This document shows, piece by piece, positions 34,720 to 53,994 of a DNA stretch of 64,000 nucleotides. This DNA is from Euzebya pacifica. GTDB taxonomy: Bacteria > Actinomycetota > Nitriliruptoria > Euzebyales > Euzebyaceae. A program made the position numbers and the translations under genes. Positions within the stretch are counted from its first letter, which is position 1; every line of letters begins with the position of its first letter. The notes beneath the pieces were generated by a model, which saw nothing but the letters and a program-made list of their open reading frames with translations, did no database searches and was not told the origin of the DNA. The stretch covers positions 1,865,910 to 1,929,909 of the forward strand of contig NZ_CP031165.1 in assembly GCF_003344865.1 (NCBI RefSeq), given 5' to 3'.

Positions 34720-36897
34720 ATGTCAGGAATGAGCACGGGGGCGACCGGCCGGAGGCCGGCGCGACGAATGACAGTGACGACGGTCCTGGTGGCCGTCGTT
34801 GCGGCGCTGCTGGCGACGGTGGCACCGGTCAGTGCACAGGAGGAGCTCAGCTTCATCCCTGCTCGCGCGGCCGCCGCTGACGCGTTCGGCTTCGAGTACG
34901 ACCAGGATCTTCTCGGCAACGATGTCCTGCACATCCAGCCCGAGCCGTTCCTGAGCGTCACCGCAAGCGACGCGATGATGCCCAACGCCCGCGACTCGGT
35001 GCTGGACGCCGGCCCGGTCGGCGATGGTCCCTCCGCTGGTGAGGCCAACGTGGCCGAGATCACTGTCGAGGCCGACATCATCGCCCCGGCCGCCCGTGCC
35101 ACCGCCGTCACCACCGATGTCAACCTGCTGCAGCCCGCCGTGGGCGACGCCCACATCGTGACCGCCGACGCCATCGCCGCCGTCTCCACCACGACCTGCA
35201 CCGAGCAGACCCTCGAGGAGGCCGCCGCGGGCACCGCCCTCACCGGCCTGACGATCGGCGGGGAGGCCATCCCGGTCGACGTGCCGTTCAACACCGAGAT
35301 CGAGATCCCCAACCTGGCCCGCGTCACCATCAAGGAGGTCGTCCCGGACAGCGACGGCATCGGCTGGACCGTTCGTGGCCTGCACATCCGCACCCTCGAC
35401 CCGCTGACCGGTGCCGTCGACAGCGAGATCATCGTCTCCGAGGCCCACAGCACCGTCGACTGCGGCGGCACCCCGCCGGAGTGGCCGCCCCCCGGCGGAC
35501 CGGACCCCGCTGGCCTGTCGGTCCAGAAGTCGATCCTCGACGCCACCCCCGGCGAGGACGGCACCGTTGCGGTCGAGCCCGGCGACAGCGTCACCTACGT
35601 CATCGACGTCACCAACGTCGACGAGGCGGCGTGCACGGTCAACCGGATCGTGGACTTCCTGCCGCTGCCCCTGTCGGCTGACGGCACCGGTGAGGTCCTC
35701 ACCGACATCGAGGCCACGCCCCGTGGCGAGAACGGCCTGGTCTACGAGATCGAGCCCGTCACCCTCGAGCCCGGCGACAGCCTGACCGGCACGATCACCT
35801 CCGTGCTGCCCGACCCGCTCGCCAGCGGCTCCTACTTCAACGACGCCGTCGCCTACGGCACCTGCGGCATCGGCCGCTCGGGCCTGTCCGCCGGCTTCAC
35901 CTGGGACGGCGGCGAGACCGACCCGTGCGACTCGCCGATCACCACCGGCACGTTCTCCAGCACCTCCCGCCTGGGTGGCGACGACCGTGTCGACACGGCG
36001 CTGCGCGTCTCCGGCATGCTGACGGTCAACGAGGCCAACGCGGTCGTCATGGCCCGCTCTGACATGTTCCCCGATGCGCTGGCGGCCTCCGGCCTGGCGG
36101 CGGAGCTGTGCGCCCCGCTGCTGCTCAACGCCCCGGGTGACCTGCACCCCGACAACCTGGCGGAGATCCAGCGCCTCGACGTCGACGACGTCTACCTGGC
36201 GGGTGGCGAGGCCGCGCTGAGCGCCTCGATCGCTGATGACCTCGAGGCCGAGGGCATCAACGTCATCCGCGTGGCGGGGGACAGCCGGTACACCACCGCC
36301 CGTGCCATCGCCTTCGAGATCGTCCGCATCGGCGGCCCCGTGGCCCGCGCCACGCTGGTCCGCGCCGACATCTTCCCCGACGCCATGTCGGCGGCCAACC
36401 TGGCCACCCACGCCCGGTCCCCGATCCTCCTGACCGACTCCGACGACCTCAACGACGCCTCAGCGGCGGCGCTGCCGGCGATCCTCGACGGCGAGGCCGG
36501 CAACATGGTCTACATCGGCGGTGGCGAGGTGGCGATCGAGGCGTCGGTCGAGGACGAGCTCAACCGCGCGTACCAGACGCGTCGCCTGGCCGGCCTCAAC
36601 CGCTTCGAGACCTCGGTGGCCTTCATCGAGGAGGCCGTGGCGCTCGGCGCCATCCGAGACATCACCTGGGTCGCCTCCGGCCACGACTTCCCCGACGCCC
36701 TGACCGGGTCGGTCGGTGCCTTCCGGCAGGACGCCGGGCTGATGTTGACCAACCCCAACGACCTGGCCGACTCGCCGGCCACGAAGACCTACCTGTCGGG
36801 CTTCGCCGAGCAGATCACCACCGCCGTGATCGTCGGTGGACCGGCTGCGGTCTCCGAGCAGGTCGAGGGCCAGATCCTGGACGCCATCCGGGAGTGA
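34720..36897 (+). CDS. Secreted CWB2-repeat protein with DUF11-like stalk
   Basis: A 725-residue exported protein. A basic N-region and a hydrophobic stretch (residues 17-38) end at an AxA-type site (VSAQ). Residues about 45-250 have no recognised family. Residues about 265-400 form a DUF11/Ig-like module (LSVQKSILDATPGEDG, VEPGDSVTYVIDVTNV) with two Cys residues that could pair. The final 300 residues hold three CWB2 repeats (RLGGDDRVDTA, RVAGDSRYTTA, RLAGLNRFETS), which anchor proteins to the wall. No enzyme motif is visible, so a structural or adhesive surface role is likely. It is inserted between lepA and hemW. Confidence 0.87.
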   Translation: MSGMSTGATGRRPARRMTVTTVLVAVVAALLATVAPVSAQEELSFIPARAAAADAFGFEYDQDLLGNDVLHIQPEPFLSVTASDAMMPNARDSVLDAGPVGDGPSAGEANVAEITVEADIIAPAARATAVTTDVNLLQPAVGDAHIVTADAIAAVSTTTCTEQTLEEAAAGTALTGLTIGGEAIPVDVPFNTEIEIPNLARVTIKEVVPDSDGIGWTVRGLHIRTLDPLTGAVDSEIIVSEAHSTVDCGGTPPEWPPPGGPDPAGLSVQKSILDATPGEDGTVAVEPGDSVTYVIDVTNVDEAACTVNRIVDFLPLPLSADGTGEVLTDIEATPRGENGLVYEIEPVTLEPGDSLTGTITSVLPDPLASGSYFNDAVAYGTCGIGRSGLSAGFTWDGGETDPCDSPITTGTFSSTSRLGGDDRVDTALRVSGMLTVNEANAVVMARSDMFPDALAASGLAAELCAPLLLNAPGDLHPDNLAEIQRLDVDDVYLAGGEAALSASIADDLEAEGINVIRVAGDSRYTTARAIAFEIVRIGGPVARATLVRADIFPDAMSAANLATHARSPILLTDSDDLNDASAAALPAILDGEAGNMVYIGGGEVAIEASVEDELNRAYQTRRLAGLNRFETSVAFIEEAVALGAIRDITWVASGHDFPDALTGSVGAFRQDAGLMLTNPNDLADSPATKTYLSGFAEQITTAVIVGGPAAVSEQVEGQILDAIRE

Positions 36898-36914
36898 CGG
36901 CTGCCGCACCACGA

Positions 36915-36944
36915 CGAACGGGCGCCCCGGTGGGCGCCCGTTCG
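36915..36944 (+). terminator. 13-bp terminator hairpin
   Basis: CGAACGGGCGCCC (36915-36927) pairs perfectly with GGGCGCCCGTTCG (36932-36944), loop CGGT, followed by GCGTTT. It ends the CWB2 gene. Confidence 0.87.
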
Positions 36945-36973
36945 GCGTTTCCCGGCCCGGCTACCCTTCCGTC

Positions 36974-38113
36974 GTGACGCCCCCGACCGCCCCCGCCTCC
37001 GTCGTGGCCGAGCGGCTGCCCGGCATCTACGTGCACGTCCCGTTCTGCCTGCGTCGTTGCGACTACTGCGACTTCACGACCTTCGCCGACCGTGACGAGG
37101 CCATCCCCGCCTACGTCGAGGCCCTGACCGCCCACATCAGGCGTACCCCGCAGGACGCCACGTTCGGGTCGGTCTTCGTGGGTGGCGGCACCCCCACCTA
37201 CCTGCCGCCAGATGACCTCCGGCAGGTCCTGCAGGCGCTCGGCGACACCTTCGAGTTCGCCGACGACGCGGAGTGGACGGTGGAGGCCAACCCCGAGACC
37301 GTCGACGCGGAGATGGCCGCCGCGCTCGCCGGCGGTGGGGTGAACCGCATCTCCCTCGGGGCCCAGTCCTTCGACACCCGCGTCCTGTCGACCCTCGGCC
37401 GCTGGCACGACCCCGACAGCGTGCCCCGCGCGATCGGCCACCTGCGCGACGCCGGCATCGACCGGCTGAGCATCGACCTGATCTACGGCACACCGGGAGA
37501 GACCGACGCGTCGTGGGCGGCCACGCTCGACCGGGCGGTCGAGCTGGGCACCAGCCACGTGTCGGCCTACGCCCTGACCGTGGAGCCCAACACGCCGTAC
37601 GCCGCCCGTGTGCGGACCGATGACGCCCTCGCACCGGACGAGGACGTGCAGGCCGCCCGCATGGCGGTCACCGACGAACGGCTGGGCGCGGCCGGCATGC
37701 ACCGCTACGAGGTGTCCAACTGGGCCCGGCCGGGCCTGGAGTCACGACACAACCTGACGTACTGGCGGGGTAACGACTGGCTGGCGTTCGGCTCGGGAGC
37801 CCACGGTGCATGGGAGGGCCGGCGCTACTGGCTGGTGCGGGATCCCGACAAGTACGCCCGGATGGTGGCGGAGGGCCACGAGCCGCTCGGTGGACAGGAA
37901 CACCCCGACGCCGAGGCGCGCCGACTCGAACGGCTGATGATGGGCCTGCGGGTCACCGAAGGCGTGCCGCGCGAGGAGGTCGTGCCGCTGGACCCCGGAA
38001 TCGTCGCCCGGTTGATGGGTCGGGGACTGCTGACCATGAAACCGGGGGACCGGTTGGCGCTGACCCCTGCCGGGATGCCCCTTGCCGGAGCGGTCATCCG
38101 CGAGCTGGCCTGA
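36974..38113 (+). CDS. hemW: Radical SAM heme chaperone HemW
   Basis: A 379-residue radical SAM protein. The cluster motif is CLRRCDYC (Cys25, Cys29, Cys32; CxxxCxxC). The GGGTPTYL motif and SLGAQSFDTRVL, IDLIYGTPGET and the C-terminal HemN_C-like region match HemW, which inserts heme into respiratory enzymes. It is often misnamed coproporphyrinogen oxidase. The GTG start at 36974 is supported by TACCCT (36962-36967) ending 6 nt upstream. An in-frame extension back to 36836 would overlap the previous gene and is rejected. Confidence 0.92.
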   Translation: MTPPTAPASVVAERLPGIYVHVPFCLRRCDYCDFTTFADRDEAIPAYVEALTAHIRRTPQDATFGSVFVGGGTPTYLPPDDLRQVLQALGDTFEFADDAEWTVEANPETVDAEMAAALAGGGVNRISLGAQSFDTRVLSTLGRWHDPDSVPRAIGHLRDAGIDRLSIDLIYGTPGETDASWAATLDRAVELGTSHVSAYALTVEPNTPYAARVRTDDALAPDEDVQAARMAVTDERLGAAGMHRYEVSNWARPGLESRHNLTYWRGNDWLAFGSGAHGAWEGRRYWLVRDPDKYARMVAEGHEPLGGQEHPDAEARRLERLMMGLRVTEGVPREEVVPLDPGIVARLMGRGLLTMKPGDRLALTPAGMPLAGAVIRELA

Positions 38114-39748: not shown

Positions 39749-41518
39749 TCAGCTCTCGGTCACGTCTGCCTGCTCCGCGTCGGTCGCCCTGAACGACTCC
39801 AGCTGGACGGCGATGACGTCGTCGAGGTCGCCGCGCCGGGACGGCGGCATGGCCCCCCGACCGCGCGCTTCGCGGTACTGGTCCCAGAAGATTGCCCAGG
39901 ACACGAACGACTGGGCGTCGATGGCCTTCATGACGTGGTTGCCCTGCGCGACGTCGGTGCCGAACTCCTCCAGCATGGCCCACGCCTCGTTGGTCTCCAC
40001 CCCCTCCGCCACCACGCGCATGCCCAGGCTGTGGCCGAGGTCGACGATGGAGCGCACGATGACCGCATCGTTGGGCCGGATCACCATGCGGTCGACGAAG
40101 GACATGTCGATCTTGATCTCGTTGACGGGGAACTTGCGCAGGTGCGACAGCGAGGAGAACCCGGTCCCGAAGTCGTCGATGGCCAGCTGGACACCCATGT
40201 CGGCCACCCTGGGCAGGACGCCGAGGGCCTCGACCTCCTGGGTCAGCAGCGCGGTCTCGGTCACCTCCACGCTGATGCTCCCCGGCGCCAGGCCGTGGGC
40301 GTCGATGACGGCCTGGATGCGTTCGGGGAGCTCGACGTCGGCGATGTCGCGTTCGGTCAGGTTGACCGCGACGGTGAACTCGAAGCCCTCGGCCTGCATC
40401 GTGGCGCAGTGGGCGCCTGACCGGTCGAGCACGAAGTCGGTGAGCTCGCGCAGCAGGCCGGCATGTTCGGCAATCAGGATGATCTCCCCGGCCGGGATGA
40501 ACCCGAGCGTCGGGTGCGACCACCTGATGAGGGCCTCTGCGCCGATCAGCTCCCCGGTTGCGAACCGCACCTTCGGCTGGAACCTGACCTCGAGCGCCTG
40601 CTCCGCCAGCGCTGCGCGCAGGTCCGTCGCCAGGCCGAGCCGTCGGGTCCGGTGGCGGTCCAGCTTGCCCTCGTACACCAGGTAGGGGATCCCGCGACCC
40701 TTGGCGGCGTACATGGCGACGTCGGCGGCACGGATGAGCTCTTCGGGGCCGTCCCCGTGTTCGGGGAACCGGGCCATGCCGATGCTGACGGAGAGGTCCA
40801 GCACCAGGTCGCCGTGGGTGACCGGGCGCGCGATGGCCTCGGCCACCTCGGCAGCCAGCTCGTCGGCGGCTGCGGTCACCTCGGCGCTGGTCGGGGCCGA
40901 CAGCAGGACGGCGAACTCGTCGCCGCCGAGCCGTCCGACCTCGTCGACCCGGCCGCCGAGGGACGCGAGGCGCTGACCGACCTCGGCCAGGACGTCATCG
41001 CCCATCTGGTGGCCCAGCGTGTCGTTGACCTCCTTGAACCCGTTGAGGTCCACCAGGAGGACGGCCGGCGTCGAGCCACGGGCGGCCGACGTCGCCACCG
41101 CGCTGGTGATCGACTCCTCGATGTGGACGCGGTTGGGCAAGCCGGTGAGCTCGTCGAACATGGCGTGCCGTTCCAGGCGGGCCAGCCGACGGGCCGATGC
41201 CAGCGACTGGCCGGTCTCCTTGGCTGCGAGGAACAGCAACGACCGCTCCGAGGGCCCGAACGACGAGGCCTGGTCGGCGTCGCGGATGGCGTACAGCAGC
41301 CCGGTGGCCCCGCCCGGCCACGGGGCCTGCGCGAGCAGCAGGTGCACGCGGGTCGGCAGCCCGAGCTCCTCGGCGATCGTCCCGAGCACCGACGCATCGA
41401 CCGTGAGGTGCTGCACGCCGCCGGCCATCGACTCCACGATCCCCTGCAACGGGCCCAAACCATCCTCGACCGTGTGGTCCTGCTCGGCGGCGACATGGTG
41501 GGCGCCCTCGGGCTCCAC
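39749..41518 (-). CDS. GGDEF-EAL half of a frameshifted c-di-GMP enzyme
   Basis: A 589-residue open frame. Residues about 1-100 are GAF-like. The GGDEF domain (about 115-285) has FDELTGLPNR and an intact GRLGGDEF. The EAL domain (about 300-540) has EALIRW, VNLTERD, DDFGTGFSSL, KIDMSF and AEGVET. Both c-di-GMP synthesis and hydrolysis are therefore possible. The first codon (GTG) is not convincing: coding sequence continues upstream as CGQPLDALAVGVVE and joins the membrane half in another frame. Removing one copy of a 4-nt repeat at 41555-41565 would give a single protein of 881 residues. Confidence 0.85.
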   Translation of the reverse strand: MEPEGAHHVAAEQDHTVEDGLGPLQGIVESMAGGVQHLTVDASVLGTIAEELGLPTRVHLLLAQAPWPGGATGLLYAIRDADQASSFGPSERSLLFLAAKETGQSLASARRLARLERHAMFDELTGLPNRVHIEESITSAVATSAARGSTPAVLLVDLNGFKEVNDTLGHQMGDDVLAEVGQRLASLGGRVDEVGRLGGDEFAVLLSAPTSAEVTAAADELAAEVAEAIARPVTHGDLVLDLSVSIGMARFPEHGDGPEELIRAADVAMYAAKGRGIPYLVYEGKLDRHRTRRLGLATDLRAALAEQALEVRFQPKVRFATGELIGAEALIRWSHPTLGFIPAGEIILIAEHAGLLRELTDFVLDRSGAHCATMQAEGFEFTVAVNLTERDIADVELPERIQAVIDAHGLAPGSISVEVTETALLTQEVEALGVLPRVADMGVQLAIDDFGTGFSSLSHLRKFPVNEIKIDMSFVDRMVIRPNDAVIVRSIVDLGHSLGMRVVAEGVETNEAWAMLEEFGTDVAQGNHVMKAIDAQSFVSWAIFWDQYREARGRGAMPPSRRGDLDDVIAVQLESFRATDAEQADVTES

Positions 41519-42398
41519 GACACCAACGGCCAGGGCGTCCAGCGGCTGTCCGCAGCGTGCGTGCGGCGAGGCGGGCGACGGTGTTGTCGGACACGCCGTG
41601 GATCAGGGTGTCCTGCAGGACCTTGACGTGGTGGTCGTCGATCTCTCGACGCCGATCGAGGGCGTGGTGCAGCGACAGCGCCACCAACGCGAGTGTTCCG
41701 ACGACACCGACGAGGGCGCCGATGTCGTGGACGCGGCCAGCCATGACCGCGCTGATGCCGATGACAAGACCGAGCCCCAGAACCAGCAGGTCGTGGGCCG
41801 AGGGCATCAGCGGACCGTCGGGTCGCACCCGGCCCTCGACCGCGCTGGCACGCAGCAGCGCCTCGGTGGCGATGTCGAACAGCGCGAGGAACGTGCCGGC
41901 GAGGGCGAGGGCGAACCACGTGCCCGGGGCGAAGGCATCCGCGGGTGCGGCCGCCGCGCGGAAGATGGCCATGGCCATTCCCGCGGTGAGGGCACCGCAG
42001 GTGGCCTCGGTGATGTTGCGCATCGGCCGGTCGGGCCGCAGCACGAACGTGGACACCGCAACCGCTGACAACGTCACGAGGACCAGTGTGAACGGGCTGA
42101 GGAACGCCAGGCCGAGGAGGACGGGCACGGTGCGAACGGGCAGCACCCAGCGGCGGCTCCATTCGCTGGCCATCACCCCGGCGGCCTGCACGACCACGAG
42201 GCCGACCAGCAGTACCGCCCAGACCCCCGCGCCCGATTCCAGGAATGGGTCGCGCTGGAGCATGCGGGCGACCACGACGGTCACGAGGGCCATCACGCCC
42301 GCTGTCGTGCCCAACCAGGGCTGGGCTTCGGTGGACGACCTTGCACGACGGTTGATCCGTATCGTGGGCGTCTCGCGGTCCATGGTCGGCGTCGTCAT
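40995..42398 (-). CDS. Membrane half of the frameshifted c-di-GMP enzyme
   Basis: Only the first about 278 residues are believable. They hold seven hydrophobic helices (for example AGVWAVLLVGLVVVQAAGVM, LLGLAFLSPFTLVLVTLSAVAVSTFVL, ALVGVVGTLALVALSL) and a signalling helix ending DTLIHGVSDNTVARLAAR, a MASE-like sensor layout. Beyond about 41560 the frame turns into Arg/Gly/Pro-rich noise that runs antisense-like to 40995, while the true continuation is in the GGDEF-EAL frame. With the frames as they stand, the sensor and the enzyme would be made as separate pieces, if at all. Confidence 0.7.
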   Translation of the reverse strand: MTTPTMDRETPTIRINRRARSSTEAQPWLGTTAGVMALVTVVVARMLQRDPFLESGAGVWAVLLVGLVVVQAAGVMASEWSRRWVLPVRTVPVLLGLAFLSPFTLVLVTLSAVAVSTFVLRPDRPMRNITEATCGALTAGMAMAIFRAAAAPADAFAPGTWFALALAGTFLALFDIATEALLRASAVEGRVRPDGPLMPSAHDLLVLGLGLVIGISAVMAGRVHDIGALVGVVGTLALVALSLHHALDRRREIDDHHVKVLQDTLIHGVSDNTVARLAARTLRTAAGRPGRWCRGARGRPPCRRRAGPHGRGWFGPVAGDRGVDGRRRAAPHGRCVGARDDRRGARAADPRAPAARAGPVAGRGHRAAVRHPRRRPGLVVRALGAVVAVPRSQGDRPVAGIGPSAGPPGTARHVRRAHRLAQPRPHRGVDHQRGGDVGRPWLDAGRPPGGPQRVQGGQRHAGPPDGR

Positions 42399-42619: not shown

Positions 42620-43780
42620 GTGGCACCATTGGGGGCCGTGGCAACGGACCCGACAGCAGCGGCACCGGAGCTGGACGAGCGCAAGGCCGCCGTCCTGCTC
42701 GCGGTCGTGCGTGCCTACGTCCGGGTGGGGGAACCGGTCGGATCGCGGAGCGTCGTCGACGAGGCCGGCCTGTCGGTGTCGTCGGCAACGGTCCGCAACG
42801 AGATGGCGGCCCTGGAGGAAGCGGGCTACATCTCCCACCCGCACACCTCCGCCGGACGGATCCCCACCGACAAGGGGTATCGCTTCTTCGTCGATGCCCT
42901 CCGCGGCCAGACCAGCGCCGACCCCGACGTGTCAGCCGAACAGGTCGCGCTGCTCGATGACCTGCTCGCAGGTGCCACCGACCTCGAGGACCTGCTGCAC
43001 AAGGCCACGACGGCCCTGTCACGGCTGACCCGCTTCGCCGGGTTGGTGGCCGCTCCTCGACTGGACCGCTCGCGCCTGAAGCACATCGAGCTGGTCCAGC
43101 TGGCCCCGGCGACGATCCTGGCCGTGGCCATCGCCGACACCGGCCGCGTGACCAAGCGGATGGTCGAGCTGGCCGAGCCCCTGGCCGAGGTCGACGTGCA
43201 GCGGGCACGCCACGCGATCAACGCCGCGGCGACCGGTCTTCGTGGGCACGACGCCCCCGACGCCATCTCGGGCCTGTCCGCCGGTGCGCCCAGCGAGCTG
43301 ACCGAGCTCATCGAGCGAGTCGCCGAGGCCGTCCGCTCCGGCGTGGCAGACCCCGACACGCGGTCCCGTGGCCTCTTCGTCGGCGGGACCTCCGCCCTCG
43401 CCGCCGAAGGACAGTTCGCCCGGCTGGAGCAGGTCAAGCGGGTCTACGAGACGCTGGAGGAACAGGTCGTCGTGCTGCAGGTCCTGCAGGACGCCCTGGC
43501 CGATGCCGACCCCGGTGTCCGCATCGGGGCCGAGCTGCCGCTGCGCGAGCTCGAGGCCTGCGCGATCGTGGCGTCCTCCTACGATGCCCCCAGCGAGTCC
43601 GCCGGCCAGATCGGGGTGCTGGGCCCCAGCCGCATGGACTACCGCGCCACCCTCGGCGCCGTCCGGGCGGTCGCCGACACCTTGGAGCGGGCCATCGCCG
43701 GCATGACCGGCACCGGCCCCTCGCGAACGGCGGACCGCCTTCGGGCGACCAACCTTTCCGCACCCGACGAACAGCGATGA
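42620..43780 (+). CDS. hrcA: Heat-inducible transcription repressor HrcA
   Basis: A protein of about 386 residues. The N-terminal winged helix (LDERKAAVLLAVVRAYVRVGEPVGSRSVVDEAGLSVSSATVRNEMAALEEAGYISHPHTSAGRIPTDKGYRFFVD) is the HrcA signature. The C-terminal GAF-like dimer domain ends with IGVLGPSRMDYRATLGAVRAV. HrcA represses chaperone genes at CIRCE operators. Three starts are possible (GTG 42620, TTG 42629, GTG 42638). The GAGGGGAGG at 42612 best serves the TTG or the second GTG. dnaJ follows immediately, as in most Actinobacteria. No CIRCE is seen upstream, so HrcA does not obviously control this operon. Confidence 0.93.
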   Translation: MAPLGAVATDPTAAAPELDERKAAVLLAVVRAYVRVGEPVGSRSVVDEAGLSVSSATVRNEMAALEEAGYISHPHTSAGRIPTDKGYRFFVDALRGQTSADPDVSAEQVALLDDLLAGATDLEDLLHKATTALSRLTRFAGLVAAPRLDRSRLKHIELVQLAPATILAVAIADTGRVTKRMVELAEPLAEVDVQRARHAINAAATGLRGHDAPDAISGLSAGAPSELTELIERVAEAVRSGVADPDTRSRGLFVGGTSALAAEGQFARLEQVKRVYETLEEQVVVLQVLQDALADADPGVRIGAELPLRELEACAIVASSYDAPSESAGQIGVLGPSRMDYRATLGAVRAVADTLERAIAGMTGTGPSRTADRLRATNLSAPDEQR

Positions 43781-52800: not shown

Positions 52801-53994
52801 ATGCGACCCCTGCCCCTGCGCGCGGATCCACTTGCCCTGCCGTCGAACCGGTGGGTCGGGGTGGGACGTGGTGACGACGCTGACGCTCGGACAGCCGCGC
52901 GCGACGCCACCCTGGATGCGGTCAGGGGCTCGGATCCGGCGCTGCTGATCGTGTTCTGGGATGCCTCGCTGGAGGGTGACCGGGTGCTGGCCGGCGTCAG
53001 GGACGTCGTGCCCTCGGCCCCGCTGATCGGCGGGGCCAGCGACGGGCTGGTCGCCCCCGACCACGCCTCGGGTCATGGGGTCAGCGTCACCGCGCTCGGT
53101 GGTGACGGATTCTCCGTGGCAACCGCATCCGCCCTGGTCGGCAGTGACGTCGCCGACGCAGGCGAGGCAGTGGCCTCGTGCCTGGACGAGGTCGAGGAGA
53201 AGGGCAGCACCGTGCTGCTCCTCGTTGCCGATGGCGGGATCCAGCCGGCCGACGAGCTCGTGTTCGGTGCGTACCGCGTGGCCGGGGCCGACGTGCCGAT
53301 CGTCGGCGGGGGCCTCGGCTGGGGCTCGGTCCTCCCGGGAAGCGCACAGCTGCACGACGATCACCTCGTGACCGGCGCGGTCGTGGCGGCCGCGATCTCC
53401 TCCGACGGGCCGCTCGGCGTCGGCCAGGGCCACGGGTGCCACCGGGCCCACGGGCCGGTGGAGGTCACTCGCAGCACCGGCGTCGTCGTCGAGCTGCTCG
53501 ACGGCCGCCCTGCGCTCGACGTCTACCTCGACATCACCGACGCCCCCGACGCCGTACGACACGATCCCGACGCGTTCAGCAGCTGGGCCATGACCCGGCC
53601 CCTCGGCCTGCCGCAGCGGACGGGAGAGGCGGTCCGCCACGTCGCTGCCGCGGACTTCGACGCACGCACGCTGCAGATCGCGGCGGCCGTCCCGGCGGGC
53701 GGACAGGCCTGGGTGATGGAGAGCGACCGACACGCCGTGCTCGGCGCCACCTCCAGCGCGCTGGCCGGCGCGCTCGACCCCTTCCCCGATGACCACCCGT
53801 CGGCCGTCGTCGCCTTCGACTGTGTCGCCCGGCACCAAGTGCTCGGCCCCGAGGGCGTCCGACAGGAAGGTGCGTTGCTCGATGCCGCCGTCGGCGGACC
53901 CGTCTGCGGTGTCTACAGCTACGGGGAGTTCGGGCGGCTTTCGGGCATCCATGGGTACCTGAACCATTCGCTGGTGGTGCTGGCGCTTGGGTGA
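52801..53994 (+). CDS. FIST-domain sensor protein
   Basis: A 397-residue soluble protein with FIST N and FIST C domains: the N part includes ALLIVFWDAS and APLIGGASDGLV, and the C part GPVCGVYSYGEFGRL near the end. FIST domains are intracellular sensors proposed to bind amino acids or related small ligands and are often linked to c-di-GMP or kinase genes. The stop overlaps the start of the downstream GGDEF-EAL gene by 8 nt, so sensor and enzyme are co-translated. The ATG at 52801 follows a 60-nt gap after the TetR gene. Confidence 0.87.
   Translation: MRPLPLRADPLALPSNRWVGVGRGDDADARTAARDATLDAVRGSDPALLIVFWDASLEGDRVLAGVRDVVPSAPLIGGASDGLVAPDHASGHGVSVTALGGDGFSVATASALVGSDVADAGEAVASCLDEVEEKGSTVLLLVADGGIQPADELVFGAYRVAGADVPIVGGGLGWGSVLPGSAQLHDDHLVTGAVVAAAISSDGPLGVGQGHGCHRAHGPVEVTRSTGVVVELLDGRPALDVYLDITDAPDAVRHDPDAFSSWAMTRPLGLPQRTGEAVRHVAAADFDARTLQIAAAVPAGGQAWVMESDRHAVLGATSSALAGALDPFPDDHPSAVVAFDCVARHQVLGPEGVRQEGALLDAAVGGPVCGVYSYGEFGRLSGIHGYLNHSLVVLALG

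Follow-up and report, generated by a model that had tools for sequence, protein, structure and literature searches.

Introduction

Next to hrcA in Euzebya pacifica, a putative membrane sensor and a putative c-di-GMP enzyme lie on the same strand in different reading frames, with a short tetranucleotide repeat at the point where one frame gives way to the other. This raises the question whether the two open reading frames are two genes, one gene that has been broken, or one gene that slippage at the repeat switches on and off, as put forward in the original prediction for this locus. Screens for phase variation by tetranucleotide repeats apply a threshold of at least five copies (PMC5953494, PMC6321876), and three copies of CTGG in lacI form a spontaneous indel hotspot with both +4 and -4 changes (PMC3485313). 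In other bacteria, phase-varied c-di-GMP phosphodiesterases are known, which are controlled via promoter inversion or epigenetically (PMC9286219; PMC11868660). Here, we analysed a stretch of 64,000 nucleotides (the window; positions 1,865,910-1,929,909 on the larger of two contigs of 5.80 and 0.57 Mb) together with further c-di-GMP gene regions of the same genome and with related genomes.

Results

Two frames meet at a tetranucleotide tract

The layout of the locus is compiled in Table 1. The boundaries of the two parts and their location in different frames were confirmed, the N-terminal frame reading ...VSDNTVARLAAR up to 41558 and the C-terminal frame starting with CGQPLDALAVGVV at 41554 and reading on as ...CGQPLDALAVGVVEPEG... 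from there. The repeat lies where it had been placed, whereas its copy number had to be corrected from the 2.5 given before. The extra nucleotides in GCGTGCGTGCG could be any four consecutive positions of the tract, and dropping four of them joins LAAR to the C frame in a chain of exactly 881 codons (280 + 601), as had been calculated. In the given sequence, the raw N-terminal open reading frame continues past the break out of frame to a stop at 40995 and comprises 467 amino acids in total. The C frame is open from a stop near 41603 to the stop at 39749, and its earliest ATG, GTG or TTG codon is GTG 41518 (589 amino acids), which has a weak Shine-Dalgarno match.

Table 1. Coordinates of the interrupted gene and its surroundings within the window.
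Feature	Position	Strand	Remarks
Frame 1, N-terminal membrane part	41558..42398	-	ATG 42398, 280 codons, seven hydrophobic segments, end ...TVARLAAR
Tetranucleotide tract GCGTGCGTGCG	41555..41565	.	11 nt, 2.75 copies, at frame break
Frame 2, remaining GAF-like region + GGDEF + EAL	39749..41554	-	601 codons
Neighbouring paralogue, 462 aa	38128..39516	-	one TM segment, region without detectable GGDEF, EAL domain
hrcA orthologue	42620..43780	+	divergent flank, locus anchor for relatives
hemW-like gene	36836..38113	+	second flanking anchor

Seven peaks in the hydrophobicity profile of the translated N part support the proposed seven-helix sensor. In the C frame, strong Pfam matches were obtained for GGDEF (140.9 bits, 4e-41; cut-off 23.8) and EAL (217 bits, 3e-64; cut-off 31.3), and the translation of this C-terminal fragment retains intact GGDEF and EAL motifs, with the signatures RLGGDEF, EALIRW and DDFGTG. 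With both domains above their cut-offs and the motifs in place, the product is predicted to be a GGDEF-EAL dual-domain c-di-GMP protein. For the GAF domain, which had been assigned as well, Pfam gave no match in the focal gene itself, and in the closest single-chain relative GAF_2 was found at E 3.6e-5, below the curated cut-off.

The break lies inside a gene and not between two genes

At the tract, the third-position GC signal changes frame. By a codon-position likelihood scan, this change lies at 41548 (the scores over 41539-41556 staying within about 3 log units), and by a Viterbi codon model at 41549/41550; the switch of frame is far beyond chance. A stop codon close to a same-strand frame switch is what is expected for adjacent genes. 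Indeed, the Viterbi scan of the window returned 13 such switches, and at 12 of them the upstream frame stops within 0-30 nt, whereas at the focal site its next stop is located 552 nt past the switch, so that this is not a gene boundary. Nine more switches, all near stops (0-90 nt), were found when the scan was extended to about 159 kb of c-di-GMP gene regions elsewhere in the genome, and the focal break is thus the sole clear internal frame break in the roughly 220 kb examined. The C frame runs through 601 codons free of stops and of further frame breaks, with strong third-position GC and its coding bias intact, which means that either the break happened recently or the cell still uses the fragment.

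The family of single-chain relatives crosses the break

Proteins whose membrane part, GAF-like region, GGDEF and EAL domains share a single open frame occur across the class, including the nearest species (G002), and elsewhere in the E. pacifica genome; in sixteen relatives of the same layout, one frame covers nearly the full length. A family profile built from 13 of these sixteen matched the raw 467-residue N-terminal product at residues 18-280 only (profile positions 10-272), the match ending with the codon directly preceding the break, and the remaining tail of 187 residues had no match to the profile. The N part scored 38.0 bits, compared with 2.9 for the best of 200 block-shuffled versions, and the C frame 523 bits. 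When both frames were joined as one chain, the score rose to 568 bits over profile positions 10-843. As the profile crosses the break and the join is ungapped, the split derives from a single-chain gene. Judged by its translation, the focal chain matches the profile of the membrane-GAF-GGDEF-EAL family continuously, although in the given DNA it is spread over two frames; the reading frame is interrupted relative to its homologues, as expected of a pseudogene.

The membrane part of the focal gene is highly divergent. Two paralogues encoded elsewhere in E. pacifica (G000:C1:3926621-3929104 and 3931083-3933566) and a protein from the nearest species (G002:C3:9221-11713) share its domain order at similar length and are 41-42% identical to it across the GGDEF-EAL part; they differ in that each has a single open frame, and in the N-terminal part, which is very divergent in the focal protein.

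The hemW-hrcA locus turns over between species

The original prediction had suggested a comparison with orthologues in relatives, and this did not provide an orthologue in the other state: between hemW and hrcA the gene was absent from the four nearest genomes compared (G001-G004). In G002, whose HrcA is 97% identical, only the neighbouring EAL gene is found at this position, and neither this gene nor the focal one has a homologue there in G003 and G004. The corresponding interval of G001 (L019:200-6500, G001:C43), read by eye, holds a ROK-type regulator, a sugar ABC transporter and a GGDEF protein. The locus thus turns over between species.

Among the three other species of the genus that were compared, the membrane part gave weak matches only, none of them reaching E 1e-3, and the enzyme part matched paralogues only, so that neither half has an orthologue in the genus. 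Neither the C half nor the DNA of the junction had close relatives among genome contigs, in a set that may leave out near-identical records, and plasmid records gave generic GGDEF-EAL matches only, below 60% identity. In a phylum sample of 397 genomes, the best non-self matches to a GAF-GGDEF query were about 40-55% identical and covered essentially the GGDEF region only. Since the genomes compared contain no orthologue, the ancestral repeat number would follow from the reading frame only.

In a tree of EAL domains, the focal gene groups with the neighbouring EAL gene and the G002 orthologue of the latter with full support. The path from the focal gene to its neighbour (0.95) far exceeds that from the neighbour to G002 (0.11), and the duplication therefore looks older than the split between the two species, with a probable loss of the focal gene in G002. 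The neighbour itself, whose EAL domain is the sister of the focal one, is intact in the window, its GGDEF region being beyond Pfam detection. Its orthologue in G002 (L018:5371-6878, G002:C5) is read in two frames, with a break near the N terminus at about L018:6510-6525, beside a GGGGGGCCCC run. Another membrane-GAF-GGDEF-EAL gene, from G018 (L071:818-3405; G018:C21:213300-217800), has a frame break in the GAF region near L071:2427, close to a GGGGG run.

The repeat tract is not beyond chance

Twelve tracts of period 4 with a length of 11 nt or more are present in the window; composition-matched random sequences gave 9.2 +/- 3.4 (order-1) and 12.1 +/- 3.6 (order-2). The 4-nt repeat is thus not beyond chance, and its 2.75 copies fall below the at least five required of phase-variable tetranucleotides. 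Moreover, such tracts are less dense in the 159 kb of c-di-GMP gene regions (0.88 per 10 kb) than in the window (1.9 per 10 kb). With the tract at chance frequency and c-di-GMP genes poorer in such tracts, nothing suggests that slippage-prone sequence has been selected for. The unit of GCGTGCGTGCG recurs in a 12-nt tract at 53660-53671, ACGCACGCACGC, which lies in a coding gene free of frame breaks and could serve as a useful slippage control.

Discussion

Both the frame break and the c-di-GMP gene that carries it are real; the gene descends from a single-chain ancestor, and the break most likely goes back to one spontaneous duplication of 4 nt in a paralogue that is dispensable. We consider it probable that this tandem duplication inactivated an accessory membrane-GAF-GGDEF-EAL gene, either as a recently fixed or as a culture-level mutation, and set it on the path to a pseudogene. 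With about 49 genes for EAL-domain proteins in the genome and no copy of this one in the nearest species, the gene is probably dispensable. Slippage during replication, between short repeats, could have produced the duplication. A ribosome starting at ATG 42398 would then leave the frame after residue 280 and proceed through 187 wrong-frame codons to the stop at 40995, by which the sensor would be cut off from the enzyme; the change would be a true, recent and inactivating mutation. With nearly three tetranucleotide copies present, reversion by slippage would be possible, and occasional revertants could be expected at a low rate. The reverted form would, however, have only 1.75 copies and a return would be much less likely, so that the repeat would allow reversion rather than act as a two-way switch: by analogy with lacI, the present allele may revert occasionally, but the reverted one would rarely return. 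The intact C-terminal motifs and the lack of a second lesion would fit a very recent event, but also a sequencing error or a switch.

An error in sequencing or assembly, with the extra 4 nt existing in the record only and the gene of the living strain intact as a single chain, is unlikely, although it would account for both halves looking fully coding with no further lesion and for this being the sole unexplained frame break in the window and the 159 kb of other c-di-GMP gene regions. The gain of 4 nt outside a homopolymer is an atypical error for long-read and short-read machines alike. Moreover, about 44-47 coding-like open reading frames of the window were compared with G002, using a coding filter (long open frames occur everywhere in GC-rich DNA), and no clear other internal frameshift appeared, so that the assembly looks good. 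We regard it as quite improbable that the tract flips between 1.75 and 2.75 copies at a useful frequency and thereby turns the enzyme on and off. The tract lies exactly at the break, the loss of 4 nt restores the frame, three-copy tetranucleotides can be indel hotspots (PMC3485313), and c-di-GMP phosphodiesterases are phase-varied elsewhere, the mechanisms there being promoter inversion or epigenetic control (PMC9286219, PMC11868660). Phase variation is possible, its positive support being confined to the location of the tract. Against it stand the copy number, which is short of the published thresholds (PMC5953494, PMC6321876), the chance frequency of the tract and its lack of enrichment in c-di-GMP genes, the unbroken gene around the longer tract at 53660, the mere 1.75 copies of the intact state, and the failure to find a second allele among the genus genomes and genome contigs. 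In fact, the split by an extra 4 nt is supported, its use as a functional switch is not, and the caveat attached to the original prediction, namely a fixed mutation or a sequencing error, is the better reading.

The two parts could alternatively work as a membrane protein and a soluble GGDEF-EAL protein, or be joined by +1 ribosomal frameshifting, which we consider very improbable. Such a functional fission would agree with the open C frame and its candidate starts, of which TTG 41458 has a good Shine-Dalgarno match, and with the G018 relative being broken at a nearby point of the GAF region. However, the earliest start, GTG 41518, has a weak Shine-Dalgarno match (-3.0 kcal/mol) and every start cuts into the GAF-like region, while the N-terminal frame, lacking a stop for 552 nt after the break, would add a nonsense tail of 187 residues unlike the family profile. 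The join carries neither a known slippery motif nor a stop codon, and ribosomal frameshifting was rejected for want of the former. Extremely unlikely, finally, is a slow two-way slippage switch at the nearly three-copy tetranucleotide, with the breaks in G018 and G002 reflecting the same recurrent switching and not decay. Both of these breaks adjoin G-rich runs and could represent decay or draft-genome errors; they make decay a simpler reading for this gene group than recurrent switching.

Of the systems described in the literature, the lacI hotspot in E. coli and P. putida (PMC3485313) resembles the focal tract in having about three tandem tetranucleotide copies in a coding sequence, where +4 and -4 changes shift the frame. 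Intact lacI, however, has three copies, whereas the intact focal gene would have 1.75, which would make the forward event less likely than its reversal. With repeat-mediated phase variation in Haemophilus, Neisseria and Campylobacter (PMC5953494, PMC6321876), the locus shares a repeat unit within the open reading frame that is not a multiple of three, but the tracts known from there have at least five tetranucleotide copies, in contrast to 2.75 at chance frequency here. The phase-variable phosphodiesterases PdcB and PdcC of Clostridioides difficile (pdcB/pdcC; PMC9286219) are likewise c-di-GMP enzymes with a proposed on/off heterogeneity; their switching was shown by experiment to occur via promoter inversion by site-specific recombination, which is not the mechanism proposed for the focal gene.

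If the break were a true switch, control of a c-di-GMP enzyme by repeat slippage would, by the literature found, be unusual. If it is an ordinary frameshift, its main importance is for annotation: the two open reading frames belong in one entry as an interrupted gene, and the 467-residue product ends in 187 residues that are not real protein. Moreover, the locus illustrates the turnover of a large c-di-GMP gene set between hemW and hrcA. The E. pacifica genome (G000) contains 49 EAL-domain matches within 6.4 Mb of actinobacterial DNA, several of which are arranged in tandem groups.
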